NCBI RefSeq assembly: GCF_030053155.1
Contig: NZ_CP125640.1
Location: 1,364,001 to 1,428,000, forward strand
DNA length: 64,000 nucleotides
Source of the DNA: Rhizobium sp. BT03
Lineage (GTDB): Bacteria; Pseudomonadota; Alphaproteobacteria; Rhizobiales; Rhizobiaceae
Direction of reading: 5' to 3'
Notes under the pieces: generated by a model
Databases searched by the model: none
Seen by the model: the letters and a program-made list of their open reading frames with translations, nothing else
What the model was told of the DNA's origin: nothing
Position numbers and translations under genes: made by a program
Part shown: positions 22,917-27,746 of the stretch, in pieces
Layout: every line of letters begins with the position of its first letter
How positions within the stretch are numbered: position 1 is the first letter of the stretch

Positions 22917-23077
22917 GGGTGGCTTTCTGGAAGAAAGCGTGATCGTTCCCGCCTTGAACCACAAGCCTCGCTTCCCTAAATTATCCGCCATCGACCATTT
23001 CAACAGGATGTGTGCCGCAATGGATTTCAACCCGATCGCAATGCCAGTTCGCCTTGCCAACGGGGAAATCCACATCC

Positions 23078-24670
23078 ATGCCTGCATCCATCACTCTCTC
23101 GCAAATTTCATGGGCCACGCCTGACGGGCGGCCGCTTTTTTCCGATCTCGACCTGAGTTTCGGGGCAGAGCGTATCGGCCTGGTCGGGCGCAACGGCGTC
23201 GGCAAGACGACGCTGCTGAAGCTTATCTCCGGCGGCATCCGGCCGCAGTCGGGGACGCTGTCCGTCAGCGGCAGCCTTGGCATCCTGCGCCAGAGCGTGC
23301 AGGTGGCACCCCATGAAACCGTCGCCGATCTGTTCGGCGCGACCGATGCGCTCGCCGTCCTCCATCGGGCCGAAACCGGCACGGCAACGGCCGACGAACT
23401 TTTATCCGCGGACTGGACGCTGGAGGCGCGCATGGCCGCTGCACTTGGCCGCACGAGGCTCGACGCCGAGCCGCAGACGCCGCTTGCCGCGCTCTCCGGC
23501 GGGCAGCGGACCCGGGCCGGGCTTGCCGCGCTGGTTTTCACCGAACCGGATTTTCTGCTGCTCGACGAACCGACGAACAATCTCGACCGCGACGGCCGCG
23601 AGGCGGTGATCGGGCTGATATCGGGTTGGCGGGCCGGCGCGATCATCGTCAGCCATGACCGGGAATTGCTCGAAAGCATGGATGCGATCGTCGAACTGAC
23701 CTCGCTCGGCGCCACCCGCTATGGCGGCAACTGGAGCCATTACCGCGAGCGCAAGGCGCTGGAGCTTGCCGCAGCCCAACACGATCTCGCCGATGCCGAA
23801 AAGCGCATTTCCGAGGTGGCGCGCAAGACGCAGGCGACGGTGGAACGTCAGGCACGGCGGGACAGCGCCGGGCGGAAAATGGCGGCCAAGGGCGGCATCC
23901 CGCGCATCCTGCTCGGCGGCATGAAGGAGCGGAGCGAAACCACCGGCGGCGACAATGCCCGGTTGGCCGAACGACGGCGCACCCAGGCGCTGGAGGAGGC
24001 AAAAGCGGCACGCGAAAAGATCGAGATCCTCCAGCCCCTGTCGGTCAACCTGCCGTCGACCGGGCTTTCGGCCAGCAAGATCGTGCTGAAAATGGAGGCC
24101 GTAACAGCGGGCTATCGGCCGGGAGATGCCGTCATCCGAGATCTCTCCTTCGCCGTGACGGGGCCGGAACGGATCGCCCTCACCGGCCGCAACGGTTCGG
24201 GCAAGACGACGCTGCTGGCGCTTGTAACCGGCGCGTTGAAACCCTGGGCCGGCACGATCGCCGTGATGACCGGCTTTGCAATACTCGACCAGAAGGTCAG
24301 CCTCCTCGATCCGTCGGCCTCGATCCGCGATAATTTTCGCCGGATCAATCCGCTTTCCGATGAAAACACCTGCCGCGCCGCGCTTGCCCGCTTCATGTTC
24401 CGGGCCGATGCTGCGCTGCAGACCGTCTCGACGTTGAGCGGCGGACAATTGCTGCGCGCCGGCCTTGCCTGCACCCTCGGCTCCGCGCCGCCGCCGCTGC
24501 TCATTCTCGACGAGCCGACCAACCATCTCGACATAGACTCGATATCGGCAGTCGAGGCGGGTCTCAGCGCCTATGACGGAGCGCTCATCGTCGTCAGCCA
24601 CGACGAGACGTTTCTCGAAAATATCGGCATCAGGCGGCGGCTGGAATTGCCGGGCGATGCGGGTGGGTGA
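23078..24670 (+). CDS. ABC-F family ATPase (first copy)
   Basis: 530 residues from ATG 23078 (MPASITLSQISWA), where ABC-F homology begins. Two ABC domains are present. The first has Walker A GRNGVGKTTLL, signature LSGGQRTRAGL and Walker B FLLLDEPTNNLD. The second has GRNGSGKTTLL, LSGGQLLRAGL and LLILDEPTNHLD. The long charged inter-domain linker (about 220-335) and absence of membrane segments mark it as ABC-F, a ribosome-acting group that includes antibiotic-resistance and translation-rescue factors. Its 3' end is duplicated about 1.1 kb downstream. Confidence 0.9.
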   Translation: MPASITLSQISWATPDGRPLFSDLDLSFGAERIGLVGRNGVGKTTLLKLISGGIRPQSGTLSVSGSLGILRQSVQVAPHETVADLFGATDALAVLHRAETGTATADELLSADWTLEARMAAALGRTRLDAEPQTPLAALSGGQRTRAGLAALVFTEPDFLLLDEPTNNLDRDGREAVIGLISGWRAGAIIVSHDRELLESMDAIVELTSLGATRYGGNWSHYRERKALELAAAQHDLADAEKRISEVARKTQATVERQARRDSAGRKMAAKGGIPRILLGGMKERSETTGGDNARLAERRRTQALEEAKAAREKIEILQPLSVNLPSTGLSASKIVLKMEAVTAGYRPGDAVIRDLSFAVTGPERIALTGRNGSGKTTLLALVTGALKPWAGTIAVMTGFAILDQKVSLLDPSASIRDNFRRINPLSDENTCRAALARFMFRADAALQTVSTLSGGQLLRAGLACTLGSAPPPLLILDEPTNHLDIDSISAVEAGLSAYDGALIVVSHDETFLENIGIRRRLELPGDAGG

Positions 24671-25052
24671 TTTCAGGAGAGCAGCAGCGCCCTCCACCAC
24701 CGGCACCTACCATTCCCTAACTGCCTATAAGAGCGCGGCCTCCCCCAACCGAAGCCCGAGAGGGCGTGGCCTCGAAGCACGCCGCAACATTGCTTCCTGC
24801 ATCCCTCTGACGCCGCCTCCCTCGCCTCATTTTTCCGGCAACGGTATTTCCATCCTGCAACCCTTTCGAGAAAGGCCCCGGTGTATTTGCCTTTCGGCCT
24901 GCCATTAAGTCTTCGCTCAATCTCGATTGCTCCACTAGCCCGTTTCGTCGTGAAAAGGCTTGAGGTCGCTAGTTCGAAAGCGATGCCATACTTGCAAGAT
25001 ATAACGCATTCAACCTATTGATAACCACCGCGGCAGCTTGGAGGAGAAGGGC
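24671..25052. other. Spacer with a segment duplicated downstream
   Basis: No gene is seen in these 382 bp. The stretch 24820-24875 is closely repeated at 25913-25968, ending in the same CCCTTTCGAGAAAGG. Both copies lie 100-150 bp after an ABC-F 3' end, which shows that the region was duplicated before something was inserted. The last 50 bp carry the AGGAGAAGG ribosome site of the next gene. Confidence 0.65.
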
Positions 25053-25654
25053 ATGACTATGGAAGAGGCGATCGGGCATCGTGCAGCCCAAAAGTGGAGC
25101 CTCTGGAGAAGCGCCAATATTGGCATTAGCGTTAGCGCTGCCATCTTGTTGCTTCAGGTCGCGAACGGTCGAGGCTTTGAACTAGCAAACTACGCCCACA
25201 CTCGGAGTGCGGAAACGATTAGCGCTTTAGGTGGGCAGGTTCTCGCCGCACCACTATTATTTGTGGTGATTGCAGCCATACGAAACGTTTTCAGAAGGGG
25301 TCAAGCTAAGTCGAACGCAAGTGCCATCCGGGGGCAATCACGTTTGCGGCGCTCTTTGTCACAATTTTCGTCGGCCTTCTTGCCTACGGAGAGTTTGTGT
25401 TCTCTCGCGACGAAGCAATCGGTGGCGAAGCTCGAAAATCATTCATAGCCGACACCCAGTTTGCTTGCGTTCGAAAGCAGGCCTCACTCAACCAAGCTAT
25501 TACCCAGCAGCAAATCCAAACCTATTGCACCTGTTTCACCGAGAAGATGGCCGACATCACGACGTACAAACAATTGGGCACTGAACTGGCTGCCAAAGAC
25601 CTCGCGGACCTGCAGCAAAAGGTTGGAGAAATAGGCAACCTTTGCCGCCAATGA
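25053..25654 (+). pseudogene. Membrane protein gene broken at a G-run
   Basis: Starting at ATG 25053 after AGGAGAAGG, the first frame gives an N-terminal part with two hydrophobic stretches (about residues 23-42 and 68-80). A different frame then gives a third helix (ITFAALFVTIFVGLLAYGEF) and a soluble tail with four cysteines, ending at 25654. The frames join if the G-run at 25330-25334 has six Gs instead of five, restoring a protein of about 200 residues. I recognise no family. Lower GC than its neighbours and its position between duplicated ABC-F pieces suggest insertion. A sequencing error or phase variation are alternatives to true loss. Confidence 0.65.
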
Positions 25655-25667
25655 CTTCTGAACGGCG

Positions 25668-25812
25668 CATCGACTCGATATCAGCGGTCGAGGCCGGGCT
25701 GCGTGCTTATGACGAGGCGCTCATCGTCGTCAGCCATGACGAGACGTTTCTCGAGAGCATCGGGATAGAGGGGCGGCTGGAATTGGCTGGCGGTGTGCGG
25801 CGGGTTGATTGA
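25668..25812 (+). pseudogene. 3' remnant of an ABC-F gene
   Basis: Forty-seven codons (IDSISAVEAGLRAYDEALIVVSHDETFLE... to a TGA) repeat the last part of the first ABC-F gene (from about 24532), with roughly 80% identity in DNA by eye. They start immediately after the inserted membrane gene. The upstream ATPase domains are gone and no start or ribosome site exists, so this is debris of a tandem duplicate. Confidence 0.85.
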
Positions 25813-25979
25813 TGGATGCTCCTTGCATCCATCAACCACCAACGCACCTGCCTCGCCCTTCGAGGCCCCTGCCGGGCACCTCAGGACGAGGCTCTCGTGG
25901 GCTCCGCGGTTCCCTTGCCTCATTTTGCCGGCAATGGTATTTCACTCCTGCAACCCTTTCGAGAAAGGAGGATCACGCT

Positions 25980-26051
25980 ATGCAAACTTACTTCCGGCAT
26001 CATCGCCAGCGTGGTCCCGTCGACGCCCTGCAAATGCGTTTGCAGGGCTGA
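25980..26051 (+). CDS. Candidate leader peptide for ABC-F attenuation
   Basis: A 23-residue frame, MQTYFRHHRQRGPVDALQMR then LQG and TGA, has the best Shine-Dalgarno sequence in this part of the window (AAAGGAGGATCAC) nine to eleven bases ahead. It is basic and His/Arg/Gln-rich. A 10-bp hairpin overlaps its last eight codons and stop, so a ribosome stalled early would leave the hairpin free to form and a ribosome at the end would open it. It ends 168 bp before the ABC-F start. That it is translated is an inference. Confidence 0.5.
   Translation: MQTYFRHHRQRGPVDALQMRLQG
26025..26048 (+). promoter_or_regulatory. 10-bp hairpin over the end of the leader peptide
   Basis: GCCCTGCAAA (26025-26034) pairs perfectly with TTTGCAGGGC (26039-26048) around a TGCG tetraloop. 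No T-run follows, so it is more likely an anti-/pause structure than a terminator by itself. Confidence 0.65.
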
Positions 26052-26219
26052 CCAGAGACCGTTCCCGACATCTCTTCCTGGTCTGCCCTTCGTGGCCAAT
26101 GCGGCGCCGTAACCCATGGTTGGCTCCCGCATTCCTGTAACTTCCCGGGCCCGATAGGCGCAATTCCGTGATGGCTGAACGCCCCGGATCGCCTCCCCGG
26201 TCAAGACCAGAGAACGATC

Positions 26220-27746
26220 ATGACCCTCATCAATATCCGCAATCTCGGCGTGACGCTGAGCAATCCGCTGTTTTCGAAACTCAATCTCGTCGTCAATTCA
26301 GGCGACCGCATCGGCCTCGTCGCGGCCAACGGACGGGGGAAATCGACTCTGCTTGCCTGCATCACCGGCGCGTTGGAGCCGAGCGAAGGCGAGATCACCA
26401 AGGCCCGCGGGCTGACCGTCGGCCATGTCGCGCAGAACGTGCCGGCCGCCCTCTTCGACACGCCGTTTTACGATGCTGTGCTGCAGGCGCTGCCGGCCGA
26501 TCAGGCCGAAAGCGAAAGCTGGCGGGTCGATGTGGTGCTGGACTCGCTCGAGGTGCCGGAGGTGATGCGTTCCCGGCCGCTGCAGCAGTTGAGCGGCGGA
26601 TGGCAGCGGCTTGCCATGCTGGCCCGCACGTGGGTGAGCGAACCCGACGTGCTGTTGCTCGACGAGCCGACCAACCATCTCGACCTCGAAAAAATCGCGC
26701 AGCTGGAGGGCTGGCTCAATGCGCTGCCGCGCGACGTGCCGGTCATCCTCTCCAGCCATGACCGCGCCTTCCTCGATGCGACGACCAACCGGACGCTGTT
26801 CCTGCGGCCGGAGCAATCGCCGGTCTTCGCCCTGCCCTATAGCAGGGCGCGCGCCGCCCTCGACGAGGTCGACGCCTCCGATGCCCGGCGTTACGAGCGC
26901 GACATGAAGACAGCCGAGCAATTGCGCAAGCAGGCGGCCAAGCTCAACAATATCGGCGTCAATTCCGGCAGCGACCTGCTCGTCGTCAAGACGAAGCAAT
27001 TGAAGCAGCGGGCGGAGAAGCTGGAGGATGCGGCAAAACCCGCGCATCTCGAACGCTCGGCCGGCGCCATCCGGCTTTCCAACCGCGGCACCCATGCCAA
27101 GGTGCTGGTGACGCTGGAGGATGCGGCGGTGACGACGCCGGATGGCACGCTGCTGTTCAAGACCGGCCGGCAGTTCATCTGCCAGGGCGACCGGATCGTG
27201 CTGCTCGGCCTTAACGGCGCGGGCAAATCGCGGCTGGTCTTGATGCTGAAGCAGGCGATCGAAAGACCGGAGACAGCTCGGGATGGTATCAAGGCGACGC
27301 CGTCCGTTGTTCTCGGCTATGGCGATCAGGCGCTTGCCGATCTTGCCGATACCGACACGCCGATCGGCACGATCATCCGCCGCTTCGATGTCGGCGATCA
27401 GCGGGCACGCGCCCTGCTGGCCGGTGCCGGCATGACGATCGACATGCAGGCAAAGCCGATCGGCCAGCTTTCCGGCGGCCAGAAGGCGCGGCTCGGCATG
27501 CTGGTGCTCAGGCTGACCGAGCCGAATTTCTATCTGCTCGACGAGCCGACCAACCATCTCGACATCGAGGGACAGGAAGCGCTGGAGAGCGAGTTGATGG
27601 CGCATGAGGCGAGCTGCCTGCTGGTCTCGCACGACCGCAGCTTCGTGCGGGCGGTGGGAAACCGGTTCTGGCTGATCGAGAAGAAGAAGCTGGTGGAGGT
27701 GGAGAGCCCGGAAGGGTTCTTCACTTCGGTGGGATCAGAGGGGTGA
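26220..27746 (+). CDS. ABC-F family ATPase (second copy)
   Basis: 508 residues. The first ABC domain has AANGRGKSTLL, LSGGWQRLAML and VLLLDEPTNHLD. The second has GLNGAGKSRLV, LSGGQKARLGML and FYLLDEPTNHLD. The basic linker (about 225-290, many Lys/Arg/Gln) suits a ribosome-E-site arm, and no membrane helices occur. It differs clearly from the first ABC-F protein, so they are paralogues, not a recent copy. The second Walker A lacks the usual T/S-T (KSRLV), a mild departure. The long structured leader suggests inducible expression, as in antibiotic-resistance ABC-F genes. Confidence 0.9.
   Translation: MTLINIRNLGVTLSNPLFSKLNLVVNSGDRIGLVAANGRGKSTLLACITGALEPSEGEITKARGLTVGHVAQNVPAALFDTPFYDAVLQALPADQAESESWRVDVVLDSLEVPEVMRSRPLQQLSGGWQRLAMLARTWVSEPDVLLLDEPTNHLDLEKIAQLEGWLNALPRDVPVILSSHDRAFLDATTNRTLFLRPEQSPVFALPYSRARAALDEVDASDARRYERDMKTAEQLRKQAAKLNNIGVNSGSDLLVVKTKQLKQRAEKLEDAAKPAHLERSAGAIRLSNRGTHAKVLVTLEDAAVTTPDGTLLFKTGRQFICQGDRIVLLGLNGAGKSRLVLMLKQAIERPETARDGIKATPSVVLGYGDQALADLADTDTPIGTIIRRFDVGDQRARALLAGAGMTIDMQAKPIGQLSGGQKARLGMLVLRLTEPNFYLLDEPTNHLDIEGQEALESELMAHEASCLLVSHDRSFVRAVGNRFWLIEKKKLVEVESPEGFFTSVGSEG

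Follow-up and report, generated by a model that had tools for sequence, protein, structure and literature searches.

In Rhizobium sp. BT03 a chromosomal gene for an ABC-F ATPase, a member of a protein family whose target is the ribosome, is preceded by a very short open reading frame that runs into a hairpin, and the question that this arrangement raises is whether translation of the small frame governs production of the protein encoded downstream. The window that we have analysed is a stretch of 64,000 nucleotides from contig NZ_CP125640.1 (forward strand, positions 1,364,001 to 1,428,000), and all coordinates are those of the window. According to the original prediction the gene may be induced by ribosome stalling on a leader peptide, in the manner of several antibiotic-resistance ABC-F genes in Firmicutes; the elements on which it was built, a 23-codon frame with a strong Shine-Dalgarno (SD) site, a perfect 10-bp hairpin, a gap of 168 nt between the leader stop codon and the ABC-F ATG (26220) and a weak ABC-F ribosome site, are all confirmed in the sequence. 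The features of the locus are as follows, with RNA segments numbered according to the four-segment scheme of ermC/ErmCL.

25915-25943, + strand: promoter-like TTGCCT-17 nt-TATTTC, a possible promoter judged from the letters.
25964-25971, + strand: strong Shine-Dalgarno site of the leader, AAAGGAGG.
25980-26051, + strand: leader peptide ORF, MQTYFRHHRQRGPVDALQMRLQG and stop, 23 codons from ATG 25980 to TGA 26049-26051, frame conserved.
26007-26018, + strand: codons for Gln-Arg-Gly-Pro, proposed pause site (P site Gly12, A site Pro13).
26025-26034, + strand: region 1, the 5' arm of the 1:2 hairpin, GCCCTGCAAA, from pairing in the alignment.
26039-26048, + strand: 3' arm of the 1:2 hairpin, TTTGCAGGGC, of which GGGC (26045-26048) is common to region 2.
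26045-26055, + strand: region 2, GGGCTGACCAG, spanning the leader stop; partner region 1 or region 3.
26078-26088, + strand: region 3, CTGGTCTGCCC; partner region 2 or region 4.
26204-26210, + strand: region 4, AGACCAG, at the ABC-F ribosome-binding site and overlapped by the weak SD AGAGAA (26209-26214).
26220-27746, + strand: ABC-F ATPase of 508 aa, the proposed regulated gene, assigned from NCBIfam, Pfam and comparison with PDB sequences and folds.

The leader hairpin (10 of 10 base pairs, 4-nt loop) is made by the last eight sense codons, and AGAGAA is the only possible SD for the ABC-F gene. RNA from the promoter-like element would begin ∼30 nt 5' of the leader ATG; 32 of the 78 leader loci have a loose match to TTGnnn-N15-19-nATnny 5' of their SD, and a stricter consensus scan returned no promoter at the leader locus. 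The encoded protein scores 288 bits against NF000355, the NCBI model for ribosomal-protection ABC-F proteins, which is under the cut-off of 380. Its nearest solved structure by both sequence and fold is VmlR2 (8buu), with PoxtA second by fold and PoxtA, YbiT, YheS, Uup and EttA close behind, the fold comparison having been made from an AlphaFold2 model of mean pLDDT 88. Residues 244-264, which form the interdomain tip, include many that are invariant among 17 sequences (NIGxNSxSDLLxxKxxQLxxR).

Orthologs of the ABC-F gene were collected from 25 of 41 genomes, comprising the genome itself, 23 of the 24 further genomes of the genus and one of the 16 from other families, and the leader ORF precedes the gene in all 25, with the TGA at the hairpin end 138-198 nt 5' of the ABC-F start and an earlier stop inside the hairpin in one case (L006). 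Alignment of 23 of these loci (A1; L013 and L020 dropped) was used to build a covariance model, R1, that matches 63 of 397 genomes drawn from the order at E ≤ 0.1. The 57 matches with E ≤ 5e-8 are full length and every one is upstream of an ABC-F gene, at a distance of 77-225 nt with a single exception of 1560 nt (L057); weak matches occur in six genomes of the draw, and no ABC-F gene adjoins the four that were examined (L083-L086, with G072 and G053 left out). An independent search with the ABC-F protein matches 62 of the 397 genomes at E ≤ 1e-120, 56 of which are among the 57; in the other six a leader-like ORF could be found in the right place by inspection, one of them degenerate (L237), and in the 57th leader genome (G328) the ABC-F gene is split into two tblastn pieces.

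A DNA pattern for the leader only retrieved at least 118 stretches from named genomes. Among the 118 matches listed, 117 are followed closely by an ABC-F ortholog, whose start is 59-226 nt away in the 116 that tblastn delimits (L167 is partial), and the one remaining stretch (L105) ends after 86 nt. These listed matches belong to Rhizobium, Ensifer, Mesorhizobium, Aminobacter, Bradyrhizobium, Bosea, Labrys, Devosia, Phyllobacterium and Shinella and further to Sulfitobacter, Yoonia, Loktanella, Roseobacter, Tateyamaria, Pelagimonas, Marivivens, Roseomonas and Nisaea, so that soil as well as marine alphaproteobacteria are represented; a taxonomy look-up places Devosia in Hyphomicrobiales, Sulfitobacter in Rhodobacterales, Roseomonas in Acetobacterales and Nisaea in Rhodospirillales. 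In 385 genomes of the class a second model, R2, gives 13 strong matches (E ≤ 4e-10, window included), and 40 of 53 genomes have only weak matches (E > 1e-5), taken as chance. The ABC-F gene is present in 14 genomes of the class draw (E ≤ 1e-110, window included) and the leader in 12 of these. No leader was recognisable by inspection in G673 (L270), where the ABC-F protein is 64% identical and the context AT-rich, a possible loss of the leader, and none was found in G706 (ABC-F identity 44%); G690 has the leader and a partial ABC-F gene. Among 388 genomes drawn from the phylum, whose share from other classes is unstated, all 23 matches at E ≤ 1e-5 fall in the window's own class. Absence of the frame from related strains had been set beforehand as one of the findings that would refute the original prediction, and this is clearly not what is seen: the frame persists throughout the order and extends to further orders within the class. 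At one locus (L057/L238, genome G177) 1560 nt separate a leader that looks intact from the ABC-F start, a spacer longer than normal by ∼1.4 kb, and the switch considered below would be uncoupled there.

An erm-type attenuator has a translated leader ORF just 5' of the main gene, and what we observe at the sequence level is the ORF itself, its SD, with a G-rich SD at the matching place in most rows of an alignment of 70 leaders, and conservation at the level of codons. Leaders are mostly 15-28 codons long. In Rhodobacterales leaders, such as L122 and L183, the best-spaced start after the SD resembles CTG (CTGAACATGCGT...), two codons before the in-frame ATG.

The part of the peptide that is kept is not the one first suggested. 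A His/Arg/Gln-rich sensor had been envisaged, but His is not conserved and the near-invariant part is Gly-Pro, whose codon pair GGN CCN is located exactly six nt 5' of the hairpin-opening GCC in 78 of 78 full-length R1 matches. Third codon positions vary (pairwise difference 0.458 for the Gly codon and 0.621 for the Pro codon, in a set collected with a pattern that contains GGN CCN), so that it is the amino acids that are kept and not the letters. The Gly-Pro codons are similarly built into the patterns behind the 118 stretches (GGY CC for this leader-only scan) and behind the sets of 161 distinct cores and 251 or 175 loci considered below; counts free of this bias are those from the 78 R1 matches, the six order-draw loci that were inspected and the class-draw loci, the last with two exceptions, Gly-Ser (L274) and Gln-Pro (L279). 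Residues directly before Gly-Pro are mostly [R/L][Q/T/S][R/H/F/Y]. Beyond the core the constraint looks like one on RNA, not on peptide, since C-terminal residues are recoded together with the hairpin or cut off. Thus QMRLQG was rejected as a peptide signal, because it becomes AP...RG in L232-L235 or is removed by a stop codon in arm 1. Such stops occur in 8 of 161 distinct cores. Loci with a stop of this kind are L006, L067, L132, L139, L147, L167, L183 and L269, the leaders ending at ...GPxxAL; the codon is TAA, with U-G replacing C-G in the hairpin, in all except L067, which has TAG.

Hairpin 1:2 was evaluated in an alignment of 70 diverse leaders (A3; 75 loci chosen less L034, L077 and L080-L082, which failed the extraction pattern, L237 not having been chosen). 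In this set 98.0% of cells are paired and 36 contain double changes, compared with 10.7 ± 2.7 in shuffles, none of 500 reaching 36. The hairpin has been rewritten as GCCCCGCG/CGCGGGGC in L232-L235 and as CCCCACGA/TCGTGGGG in L251, L273 and L274. Further downstream GGGCUGACCAG (region 2, at the leader stop) and AGACCAG (region 4) compete for CUGGUCUGCCC (region 3), the bare duplexes in the window amounting to -19.1 kcal/mol for 2:3 and -15.9 kcal/mol for 3:4. Folding of the leader region, which had been proposed as a check, gives a mixed picture: the minimum free energy structure does pair CUGGUC (26078-26083) with GACCAG (26205-26210) just 5' of the ABC-F start, but by itself this sequence folds only modestly better than its shuffled versions (z = -2.06, with 5 of 200 as good). 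The pairings beyond the hairpin that are best supported here (26045-26055, 26078-26088 and 26204-26210) were absent from those listed originally. The pair that was listed, AATGCGG (26098-26104) with CCGCATT (26127-26133), is present as described; it was rejected as a switch element and is probably incidental, because in the alignment it is retained by no more than some of the closest relatives.

Support for the two alternative helices differs. In A1 the 2:3 helix is paired in 99.6% of cells, six of its ten pairs are invariant and there is no double change, and the alignment says little about 2:3 because region 2 hardly varies. More distant loci provide examples with changed letters. In L079 regions 2, 3 and 4 read GATCG, CGATC and GATCG and both pairings form (-14.9 and -15.0); in L232 GGCTGAC is opposite GTCAGCC for 2:3 (-15.2) and GTCTCATCGTCAG is opposite CTGACTCAATGAGAC before the start codon for 3:4 (-15.8); in L080 the 3:4 pairing consists of 12 bp of unrelated sequence. 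Changed 2:3 pairings are also seen by eye in L233-L235, L272 and L275. For 3:4, in 61 of the 77 loci covered by a window scan (L057, with its long gap, being excluded here, from the group permutation test and from the ribosome-position folding), region 3 pairs best with a segment between -24 and -10 relative to the ABC-F start. Among 175 non-redundant loci, obtained from 251 (some sharing one genome) by removal of near-identical spacers, the best partner is at -27 to -8 in 144 and elsewhere in 31; with shuffled ribosome sites it is at the ribosome site in 171 of 525, ∼22% being expected if uniform. Native 3:4 combinations beat those permuted among 14 groups, defined by hand-assigned family or genus labels, with 5 of 2000 permutations as good; against this, the native pairing is weaker than the swapped one in groups f6 (13 loci), f44 and f37 (1 each). 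These narrower 3:4 tests were used because a wide swap test among groups labelled in the same way, with a 64-nt region 3, is too noisy: native was better in 2903 of 4988 comparisons for 3:4 and in 2031 of 4988 for 2:3, where native is slightly worse than swapped, and we regard the test as uninformative. Taken with the energies, the comparison points to mutually exclusive states, 1:2 and 3:4 as opposed to 2:3, with region 4 predicted to lie over the main ribosome site; of the switch pairings 2:3 has the weakest statistical support.

How the ABC-F start would respond to a translating ribosome was calculated as the cost of opening its ribosome site with a ribosome at each leader codon, the leading edge being taken at P-site +16. 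Averaged over the 77 loci the cost is 10.57 kcal/mol with no ribosome, 8.62 kcal/mol with Gly in the P site and 12.20 kcal/mol at termination, meaning the last sense codon in the P site; absolute values are rough and the result is the contrast with shuffled spacers (154 controls), for which termination minus stall is 0.19 as against 3.57 and no-ribosome minus stall is 0.53 as against 1.94. The drop starts at Gly and persists to five codons after it, and from the eighth codon past Gly onward opening is dearer than without a ribosome. When Pro occupies the P site, opening is cheaper than without a ribosome by more than 0.5 in 57 of the 77 loci and cheaper than at termination by more than 0.5 in 61. 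Calculations of this sort predict that the start is easiest to open with the ribosome at Gly-Pro and hardest after termination; against them, the predicted stall gain is only ∼2 kcal/mol and is absent or below 0.5 in 20 of the 77 loci.

Control by a leader peptide through a change in RNA structure, as originally proposed, fits the comparative and folding evidence in the way known for erm and Firmicutes ABC-F leaders, and we consider it likely that the element is an erm-type translation attenuator before a chromosomal ABC-F gene, opened by a ribosome halted at Gly-Pro. At rest hairpin 1:2 would be formed and region 3 would pair with region 4, hiding the ABC-F ribosome site; after normal termination of the leader the ribosome would cover region 2, and regions 3 and 4 would again pair and hide the site. 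A ribosome halted while Gly12 occupies its P site and Pro13 its A site would open region 1 with its leading edge, region 2 would then capture region 3, region 4 would be set free and ABC-F would be made. Comparison of sequences supports the conserved leader, the fixed-distance Gly-Pro core and pairings 1:2 and 3:4, and 2:3 less strongly, and we infer that ribosomes stall at Gly-Pro. Somewhat more probably than otherwise the usual cause of the stall would be an antibiotic that targets the ribosome in the tunnel or the peptidyl-transferase centre, a trigger that fits because the nascent chain is short and the target is an ABC-F gene. Termination of the leader inside arm 1 might also open region 1, because some leader ORFs stop there.

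The likeness to ermC is that of a short leader ORF, competing RNA segments and a main ribosome site hidden until the ribosome pauses on the leader, as described in the uORF4u paper (PMC10219788). The present peptide and RNA are different, the main gene encodes an ABC-F protein and not a methyltransferase, and hairpin 1:2 reaches the leader's own stop codon. Upstream ORFs also precede the Firmicutes ABC-F genes cplR, vmlR, vmlR2 and lsaA (PMC10201436) and msrD (PMC10314930), and where these sources state the peptides they are very short (MR[I/M], MIN, MK[L/Q], MAGN, MYLIFM), with intrinsic terminators for cplR and msrD; the alphaproteobacterial leaders, in contrast, are longer, have an internal Gly-Pro core and come with no intrinsic terminator that we could find. 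Genes named in the same two papers as leader-controlled, msrD, vmlR, vgaA, lmo0919, lmrC and cplR, come from Gram-positive bacteria. The toiL leader of E. coli topAI (PMC12121999) and the S. meliloti DUF1127 uORF (PMC12218461), as described there, are from Gram-negative bacteria and sense inhibition of translation, but their target genes and RNA logic differ. EttA and MgtL are treated in PMC11282234, and the term ABC-F is absent from the main text of the S. meliloti Ribo-seq paper PMC10117765. By analogy the switch would work like that of ermC, and we found no earlier description of it, nor of any alphaproteobacterial ABC-F leader, among the open-access papers listed by our searches or in Rfam, whose covariance models gave no match in the leader when run over 25000-27000 at E ≤ 1, the sole match (E 0.51) being on the minus strand inside the ABC-F gene.

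What halts the ribosome could be something other than a drug. Gly-Pro might itself arrest or slow the ribosome, the ABC-F protein might resolve the arrest, and the leader would then report missing ABC-F activity. RAGP, RAPP and RGPP arrest has been described (PMC12992588), and the conserved feature of our leaders is, like the end of SecM RAGP, in which Pro enters after Gly where arrest is presumed to occur, Gly-Pro and no known drug motif; moreover MsrD represses its own leader-dependent expression (PMC10314930), a kind of feedback that would be joined here to SecM-like logic, and the ABC-F interdomain tip is rich in invariant residues. The basic motif [RK]-X-[RK] directly before Gly-Pro is found in only 105 of 161 distinct cores, so that the macrolide +X+ motif was rejected as the conserved element, but a RAGP- or RAPP-like core was rejected as well, since Arg occupies the SecM position two residues before Gly in 6 of the 161; the leader is, besides, much shorter than SecM or the RAPP/RGPP peptides and its downstream gene encodes no protein-localisation factor. 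The drug-free arrest peptides known to us use a longer upstream sequence. Here Gly is residue 10-13 in 234 of 251 loci, a length typical of drug-dependent leaders. We regard a trigger without drug as unlikely, if worth keeping in mind, and consider with equal reserve that the leader may encode a novel arrest peptide shared by several alphaproteobacterial orders, with the Gly-Pro core stalling alone or with a natural inhibitor and relieved by its own ABC-F protein. No more than tentatively, the same arrest peptide could form a loop by which the cell monitors its own capacity for ribosome rescue, built on an erm-like switch, in which the letters have been replaced more than once and the pairings kept.

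Slightly less probable again is a general sensor of translation stress, in which any slow-down on the leader, from shortage of aminoacyl-tRNA or from several classes of drug, opens the switch. The predicted opening does extend over a broad stretch, starting at Gly and lasting for about five codons, and toiL responds to several antibiotic classes (PMC12121999), but a near-invariant Gly-Pro at fixed distance from region 1 would then be needless. The probabilities of both these alternatives overlap with that of the antibiotic-triggered attenuator because the RNA switch is shared and only the trigger differs. Transcription attenuation, where translation of the leader would set termination against read-through by an intrinsic or a Rho-dependent route, has precedents in the intrinsic terminators of the cplR and msrD leaders (PMC10201436, PMC10314930) and in uORF-dependent premature termination at the S. 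meliloti DUF1127 gene (PMC12218461). We find it improbable: the hairpins lack a U run, no site resembling an intrinsic terminator (hairpin plus U run) is present in 25800-26300, on which ground a Rho-independent attenuator was rejected, and the target of the conserved 3:4 pairing is the ribosome site. That the ORF and hairpin are a chance occurrence without function, for which only the modest z score speaks, is ruled out for practical purposes by conservation and association with ABC-F across the order and class.

If an attenuator opened at Gly-Pro does operate here, rhizobia, Mesorhizobium, Bradyrhizobium, Devosia, Bosea, roseobacters and Roseomonas would possess a built-in sensor of stuck ribosomes, and a new nascent-peptide stalling motif would be on offer. 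The switch could also point to a natural inhibitor that is countered by the uncharacterised ABC-F protein, one speculative candidate being phazolicin, described as a rhizobial tunnel blocker (PMC6783444).

The leader has a second ABC-F gene in its neighbourhood (23012-24670). Segments 24532-24875 and 25668-25968 repeat the 3' end of this neighbouring gene together with a promoter-like stretch (82-91%), which leaves behind a fragment of the ABC-F tail, 56 aa long (25642-25812), and another copy of the promoter-like stretch without a leader; the copies flank an insert of ∼0.8 kb and the repeat stops just 5' of the leader SD. In L002, L006 and L152 the neighbouring ABC-F gene is only 191-315 nt from the leader hairpin, and the gene or its tail is present at 15 of 197 loci tested.
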